Shown here in pieces: positions 37,020-38,119 of a stretch of 42,973 nucleotides of DNA; the stretch's first letter is position 1, and each line of letters opens with the position of its first letter. The notes under the pieces were generated by a model that ran no database searches, was not told the origin of the DNA, and saw nothing but the letters and a program-made list of their open reading frames with translations. The stretch is taken from positions 1 through 42,973 of the IMG/VR virus record IMGVR_UViG_3300025927_000011; one strand, written 5' to 3'. Origin of the DNA: a virus. A program made the position numbers and the translations under genes.

Positions 37020-37192
37020 GCGTCTGTCGCCTGAATGCCGAACAGCTCGCCCCAATGGCGCAGGCACCAGCAGCGCAGCGGCACCCCGCGCTGCAGCAGG
37101 AACCGATCGCGGATTTCCGCGCTGCCGGGGTCGAACACCACCGCCGGCTCGGTGCAGGCGTCACAGGTGCGCGTGCCGGTGTCCCCGCTCAT
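37016..37192 (-). CDS. Small cysteine-containing protein
   Basis: The product is 58 residues, with CDACTEPAVVFDPGS and, later, RCWCLRHWGELF. The CxxC, CxC and His pattern can bind one zinc ion. The start ATG 37192 overlaps the stop of the HTH gene upstream, and its stop overlaps the methyltransferase start. It may be an adaptor or regulator. Confidence 0.58.
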   Translation of the reverse strand: MSGDTGTRTCDACTEPAVVFDPGSAEIRDRFLLQRGVPLRCWCLRHWGELFGIQATDA

Positions 37193-37467
37193 GCCCAGCC
37201 TCCGCCCCGGTAGGGCTTCGCCCGCGCCGCCTCGCGCTTCGCCGCGGCAATCTCGCGCGCCAGTGTCGCCTTCGCCTCCGCCAGCATGTGCGGCGCCATC
37301 ACCAGCGCCGGATGCCGACCGCGCGTCGCCTGCGCCGCCTGCAGCGCCGACTTCACCGCGCTCATCGTGCGGCCCAATGCCTTGGCGATCTGGCGGTGGG
37401 TGAAGCCCGCGCGCAGCATCCGCTTGGCCTCGCCCAGCTCGCGCCCGGTCCACGCGCGCCCGCTCAA
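37189..37467 (-). CDS. Small HTH protein, third of a GcrA-like cluster
   Basis: The product is 92 residues and starts at TTG 37467, overlapping the previous TGA (TTGA). An HTH lies in residues 5-50: WTGRELGEAKRMLRAGFTHRQ and IAKALGRTMSAVKSALQAAQ, the same two-helix spacing as its two upstream neighbours. The C-terminal half is a basic helix (AEAKATLAREIAAAKREAARA). It is probably a DNA-binding regulator; it is not a close match to GcrA itself. Confidence 0.65.
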   Translation of the reverse strand: MSGRAWTGRELGEAKRMLRAGFTHRQIAKALGRTMSAVKSALQAAQATRGRHPALVMAPHMLAEAKATLAREIAAAKREAARAKPYRGGGWA

Positions 37468-37847
37468 TGCCGCGCCTCCTCGCGATGGGCGCCGGCGCGC
37501 GGCACGTAGCACTTGCGCGCGTGCTTCGGGCAATAGGGCGAACCCGGCGTCGTTATCGGCCGCTCGCAGAACACCCATGGTCTGGAACTGGTCATGGGAT
37601 AACAACAAGCGCCGAACACCGGCACAGCCGGCGGGCGCTGCCTGAGCGGCACCCACGGCCGCCGCGCGCGCTTCACGTACGGCACATACACCGTCTTGAT
37701 GCCGTCGAGATGCCGCCGGCACATGCCCGCCACCTGGCCCTTGGTCCGCCCGATACGCGCGGCGATCGCCACGAACGACAGCCCCTCGTCGCGCATCTGC
37801 CGCAGCGCAGCAATCAGCTCGGCCGAGGGCGCGCGCGGATTCAACAC
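37464..37847 (-). CDS. GcrA-like protein with Cys-rich C-terminus
   Basis: The product is 127 residues, starting at GTG 37847. The HTH-like N-terminus (residues 8-46) reads SAELIAALRQMRDEGLSFVA then IAARIGRTKGQVAGMCRR, similar to the GcrA DNA-binding half. The C-terminal half has CC, FCERPITTPGSPYCPKHARK and a final Cys, close in pattern to the GcrA C-terminal C-P-x and PYC-x-x-HA block that contacts sigma-70 domain 2. GcrA activates transcription at methylated GANTC sites in alphaproteobacteria. The match is by eye and only partial. Confidence 0.62.
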   Translation of the reverse strand: MLNPRAPSAELIAALRQMRDEGLSFVAIAARIGRTKGQVAGMCRRHLDGIKTVYVPYVKRARRPWVPLRQRPPAVPVFGACCYPMTSSRPWVFCERPITTPGSPYCPKHARKCYVPRAGAHREEARH

Positions 37848-38119
37848 GCCTCACGCAGCGATGGCAGCGGCGGCAGTGTCACCTTGCCCGCCCGTTCCAC
37901 ACGGACCACCACCTCACGCCGGCGCGGGTCGTCCAGGGCACGGATCACCGGGTCCTGCCGGCCAGGCAGTCCCAGCCGCCGCGCCCGCGCGATCACCGCG
38001 TTCTTGGTGGTGGAGAGCTGCAGCGCGATCTTCGGCGTGGACAGCCCCGAGGCCCAGAGCGTGCGCAGCACGGCCAGCCGCGCCTCGGGCCACACATCGG
38101 AGGCACCCCGCGGGCTCAT
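37841..38119 (-). CDS. GcrA-like HTH protein, N-terminal half only
   Basis: The product is 92 residues. The HTH (residues 10-54) reads WPEARLAVLRTLWASGLSTP then KIALQLSTTKNAVIARARRLGL, a strong match to the GcrA consensus (W..e....LkkLW..GlS...IA..L....rNAVI.K..RLGL). The C-terminal half is short and basic and lacks the GcrA Cys/Pro block, which instead appears in the next gene. It is coupled to the GIY-YIG gene by ATGA. It likely binds DNA. Confidence 0.72.
   Translation of the reverse strand: MSPRGASDVWPEARLAVLRTLWASGLSTPKIALQLSTTKNAVIARARRLGLPGRQDPVIRALDDPRRREVVVRVERAGKVTLPPLPSLREAC

Follow-up and report, generated by a model that had tools for sequence, protein, structure and literature searches.

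GcrA is among the few activators that act through region 2 of sigma and read adenine methylation. As a sigma region 2 cofactor, it binds methylated DNA through a DNA-binding domain (aa. 1–45) and sigma through a sigma-interacting domain (SID, aa. 108–173), and it raises open-complex formation (PMC7403470). The protein is dimeric (PMC3667746). Phage homologues of GcrA as such are already known, with examples from phiCbK-like Caulobacter phages (gp222, PMC3556154), Agrobacterium phage Atu_ph08 (gp5, PMC6630229), phiLM21-like prophages (PMC12429752) and a coral-associated phage (PMC11309003). The phiCbK-like, Atu_ph08 and phiLM21-like genes are carried by alphaproteobacterial phages, as also appears to be the case for the window, the whole stretch of 42,973 nucleotides that was analysed. 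In phiCbK gp222, the DNA-binding domain and the SID are found in one 182-aa protein (PF07750, 2–150), whereas in the window they are spread over two genes, A and B, of a small phage with a P22-type portal. Proteins from Phaeobacter phage MD18 (PF07750, 1–75) and Brevundimonas phage Kikimora (2–78) resemble the product of gene A in having a DNA-binding domain with no evident SID; unlike A, they have neither a TLPPL tail nor an annotated B-type neighbour. New here are the neighbouring A/B pair with its complementary loss, the conserved tail of A, and the repeated occurrence of A-type genes next to virion genes.

The initial annotation described three consecutive small HTH genes, here named A, B and C, the last being credited with the same HTH spacing. 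All three open reading frames are present on the minus strand (Table 1), and the relationship to GcrA is supported for A and B and is remote for C. They sit within one tightly overlapping early operon, in which a chain of overlapping stop and start codons joins Cro, the MUG113-type gene, A, B, C, a 58-aa ORF, a methyltransferase and a VRR-NUC-like gene; the Cro-like gene overlaps its neighbour by way of ATGA. A scan of the region for the sigma-70 consensus returned three candidates compared to 1.3 expected by chance, one of which is placed to serve the operon. The NusG/RfaH-type gene is kept in eight related records, window included, and may be a late antiterminator. When the portal was used to search for the uncultured host, similar sequences came up in 3 of the 398 Pseudomonadota genomes searched, and gcrA was present in two of the three; with portal identity at only 31–41%, an alphaproteobacterial host class is suggested and not proved.

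Table 1. Features of the window discussed in the text.
Feature	Coordinates	Strand	Description
TerS-like gene	30384-30791		Precedes TerL; assigned by position and size alone
ParB-domain DNA methyltransferase	30896..32167	-	PF01555 5e-22, PF02195 4.5e-7, phrog_498 3.6e-133; motif IV DPPY; at the start of the late region
NusG/RfaH-type gene	32191..32796	-	PF02357 7.8e-12; just ahead of the late operon
Beta-class DNA methyltransferase	36060..37019	-	PF01555 4.6e-43; TSPPY as motif IV; C-terminal end resembling a zinc ribbon; in the overlapping operon of A, B and C
Gene C	37189..37467	-	Small protein with an HTH, remotely related to the DNA-binding domain of GcrA
Gene B	37464..37847	-	Small GcrA homologue with both domains; recognition region of the HTH decayed; residues ~80-123 form a SID-like block with C-C-C-H-Y core
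Gene A	37841..38119	-	GcrA-type DNA-binding domain without SID; conserved terminal tail RAGKVTLPPLPSL
MUG113/T5orf172-type gene	38116..38478	-	PF13455 E 2.5e-6; between Cro and A
Cro/YdaS-like repressor	38475..38687	-	ORF listed as 38475-38726, ATG at 38687; YdaS_toxin 6.6e-10, P22_Cro 9e-6; first gene of the operon
Candidate sigma-70-type operon promoter	38716..38745	-	TTGCCA-18-CATACT; 9/12 consensus matches; precedes Cro; weak
CI-like repressor	38771..39145	+	HTH_3 3.1e-11; divergent from the operon

Gene A encodes 92 aa and gene B 127 aa, compared to the 173 aa of Caulobacter GcrA. The proposed likeness of gene A to the DNA-binding half of GcrA is well founded. A Pfam search matched A to PF07750 with an E-value of 5.1e-13 and 50.1 bits (cut-off 26.9) over positions 3–69 of the 155 in the profile, and A also matched the solved DNA-binding domain of GcrA (PDB: 7ye1, residues 3–52, E 2e-7). 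A profile of cellular GcrA scored gene A at 5e-16 over positions 2–63. Among the 29 DNA-binding-domain columns that are conserved in cellular GcrA, 19 are shared by the A protein of the window and 24 by that of L004, a fragment from a related phage. Since the PF07750 match stops at 69 of 155, A is without a SID; the match of the A-family profile to cellular GcrA is likewise limited to the DNA-binding domain and linker. In addition to the missing SID, A differs from cellular GcrA in its new tail.

For gene B, the PF07750 score was 27.3 bits against the cut-off of 26.9, with the best stretch at profile positions 111–153, which form the C-terminal block. Compared on its own with a solved SID (PDB: 5yix), B gave a weak match (E 0.057). 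The cellular GcrA profile scored B at 1.7e-8 as two separate domains, 4–40 and 90–134 of 138, and on the same profile none of 999 shuffled copies did better than 0.3; thus, the matches of A and B to GcrA are not due to chance. On the NCBIfam equivalog model for GcrA (NF050816), A and B scored 37.9 and 14.6 bits, respectively, both below the required 280.

A profile was also built from five phage B-type proteins. It matched 217 of 385 genomes, a sample taken to be alphaproteobacterial because its centre genome has gcrA, with a best value of 7.9e-21 and most of the strong matches spanning about 4–120 of 125 positions. It also matched Caulobacter GcrA in the PDB (7ye1, E 6.8e-10, chain residues 2–159). 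A profile made from just the three B proteins of the window lineage aligned end-to-end with cellular GcrA as well (2e-10 to 3e-7). Since a profile of phage proteins alone covers cellular GcrA at nearly full length, B is a complete small GcrA, with an HTH, then a linker, then a SID block at the C-terminus, ordered as in cellular GcrA. The earlier description of B as carrying a GcrA-like C-terminal block was therefore correct but incomplete: the block is there, and a GcrA-type HTH is there too, so that B as a mere C-terminal half of GcrA is ruled out by its own HTH and by the near-full-length profile match.

The two domains of B have not been kept equally. In the SID, 10 of 17 columns are retained, three cysteines, a histidine and a tyrosine among them; a WP.GDP segment, which most cellular GcrAs have, is lost. 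In the DNA-binding domain, 12 of 29 columns remain in the window; the tryptophan at the front is gone, and so is most of the signature of the recognition helix (NAV.GK.HRLGL). The B-type proteins of two related records, G422 and G428, retain 20 and 16 of these columns, indicating that the decay is strongest in the lineage of the window. From this comparison of conserved columns, A and B of the window lineage show complementary domain loss, A being without a SID and B having a degraded DNA-reading helix.

In the Pfam search, gene C had no PF07750 match and weak HTH matches only, and the cellular GcrA profile scored it at 0.014. The profile of the C family does align to that of the A family (hhalign, 96.7%), and the closest relatives of C among named phages are HTH proteins of Thermus phages (E ~0.01). 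As the likeness is distant and confined to profiles, naming gene C a GcrA was rejected. C is conserved in the nearest relative of the window (G003), in L004, and in G422 and G428. Comparison of the window with its nearest relative gave a dN/dS of 0.22 for A, 0.23 for B and 0.14 for C; against the more distant L004, the values rose to 0.78, 0.51 and 0.29, respectively. The value of 0.78 makes the constraint on A less clear at the larger distance. A defence-system role for the three genes was also considered and rejected, as PADLOC gave no match for A, B or C.

The C-terminus of the A family follows the pattern G-x-x-T-L-P-P-(L/M)-(P/A)-S, which persists in proteins down to 24–35% identity and is preceded by a linker of variable sequence. 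The tail of gene A is invariant in six homologues and near-invariant in 11. Synonymous changes are found within it, which indicates that the peptide, not the DNA, is conserved. In a scan of viral contigs, the AGKVTLPPL form was found in A-family genes only; among 84,980 species genomes there were 15 matches, none of which was in a GcrA-like protein. The TLPPL tail is absent from the cellular proteins that match the A profile to the end of the tail (G353, G598 and G758), none of the cellular GcrAs that were retrieved has it, and no description of it was found in the papers searched. The tail probably serves to dock A onto a partner protein and, as a defined peptide, can be put to the test.

Related records were collected by means of the portal protein; since these records are fragments, absences among them are provisional. 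A, B and C are found together in the window, G003 and L004 only. G003 has an extra gene between A and B, and L004 has a further gene between B and C. The intervening A/B gene of G003 (L007:5273-6082) looks like a PAPS reductase by eye and has no Pfam match. Two records contain B and C with no separate A: in G422, B is found soon after Cro in the early region with C immediately behind it, and G428 is a fragment on which no Cro was found and in which B and C are not adjacent. In most relatives, A is without B and lies beside virion genes. A is immediately upstream of the scaffold gene in G411, G412, G418 and G419 and near the portal in the weaker relatives G005 and G007, with B and C proper absent from all six records, and thus A does not need B. 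In L008-L010, A adjoins the portal or terminase. The P22-type portal gene of L008 (L008:5462-8752) is interrupted in frame by an insertion that includes a LAGLIDADG motif and is probably an intein with a homing endonuclease.

This placement upstream of the scaffold gene and next to portal or terminase could mean that A, and C as well, are small DNA-binding proteins in virion assembly or packaging that have nothing to do with sigma, leaving B as the only transcription factor. Such a role is unlikely given that A is within the early operon in the window and in G003, that, of the three proteins, A has the DNA-binding domain nearest to that of cellular GcrA, and that a TerS-like gene, recognized by position and size alone, already precedes TerL.

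The reading preferred here, with a probability of about 0.5, is that A and B would be tandem GcrA-derived early regulators of a temperate, P22-portal-type alphaproteobacterial phage, with B engaging sigma-70 and A and/or B targeting DNA. By analogy with GcrA, the SID of B would bind region 2 of the host housekeeping sigma factor and would thereby bring RNA polymerase to phage promoters or hold it there. Targeting of DNA would be carried out by A, either alone or partnered with B, and/or by a re-specialised HTH of B; A is regarded as a possible partner because GcrA is a dimer. The net effect would be to shift transcription from host and immediate-early genes to the replication genes of the phage. 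This reading is argued for by the end-to-end match of the B profile to GcrA, the complementary loss of columns, dN/dS values of 0.14–0.23, the overlap of the genes and the early position of B in G422. Counted against it are the six records with A and no B, the separation of A and B in G003, the lack of WP.GDP in B, GANTC sites that are not clearly linked to promoters, and the dN/dS of A against L004.

A more specific arrangement, possible and put forward tentatively, is a split two-protein GcrA in which reading of (methylated) DNA would fall to A and engagement of sigma-70 to B, the two acting together, with the TLPPL tail linking A to B or to RNA polymerase. If true, the functions of a sigma-70 cofactor would have been separated in a phage by duplication and complementary loss. 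With the functions of GcrA divided over adjacent genes, each half could be tested separately, and a divided GcrA would show how alphaproteobacterial phages tap the cell-cycle transcription system of the host. The pattern of domain loss also resembles that of dominant-negative fragments and A by itself is kept in many relatives, so that A and B might instead antagonize host GcrA, A by blocking methyl-GANTC promoters and B by competing for sigma-70, with the host GcrA regulon being shut off. This is rather unlikely, since a tail as strongly conserved as that of A points to a positive partner rather than to simple competition, the HTH fold of B is retained by profile, and A of the relatives is in the late region, which is late for host shut-off.

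The initial annotation went on to propose a combined methylation/GcrA-like circuit that could redirect transcription of host or phage; in such a circuit, a phage methyltransferase would mark phage promoters and A and B would read the marks. Its premise was confirmed in that both beta-class methyltransferase genes are present (PF01555, Table 1), and one of them shares the operon of A and B. The TSPPY form of motif IV in this enzyme is usual for N4-cytosine enzymes. On the NCBIfam CcrM model, which has a cut-off of 830 bits, the two enzymes reached 88.8 and 45.4, and they matched CcrM in the PDB (6pbd) only at chain residues 108–264 and 187–256 of 366, which is the catalytic region. Neither consistently accompanies B, as G422 has the ParB-type enzyme and G428 the operon type. 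Some alphaproteobacterial phages encode GANTC-specific methyltransferases with no relationship to CcrM (PMC5537653), so that the enzymes of the window might have GANTC specificity whatever their family. The fusion of a ParB domain to a methyltransferase has the NusG-type gene on one side and the terminase genes on the other.

The distribution of GANTC does not favor the circuit either. There are 36 sites in the window compared to about 136 expected, a depletion of about four-fold. The ratio of observed to expected sites was 0.14–0.49 in all ten related phage records (window included), with or without B, compared to 0.60, 0.89 and 1.11 in three non-alpha control stretches and 0.70 in pooled alphaproteobacterial gcrA loci. 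The depletion agrees with a host that bears CcrM but does not show regulation. When sites were counted for the promoters, non-coding DNA had six compared to 3.7 expected, which is no clear enrichment on a crude gene map that missed B, with the site at 37838 lying inside B; the candidate operon promoter contains none. With a CcrM likeness confined to the catalytic part, a TSPPY motif, no consistent company with B and depleted sites, the proposed circuit is highly improbable. GANTC methylation, if used, more plausibly comes from host CcrM than from the phage enzymes, and any methyl-GANTC input to A and B would be supplied in this way. The phage may use A and B to steer host transcription, although no link to methylation could be shown.

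Two further observations were made. PF07750 also scored above its cut-off in one of the control genomes, that of the archaeon Sulfolobus acidocaldarius, perhaps as a false positive of the model. At the right end of the window (42341-42973, minus strand), there is a glycosyl hydrolase family 5 (cellulase) domain (PF00150, 1.9e-11), which is unusual in a phage.
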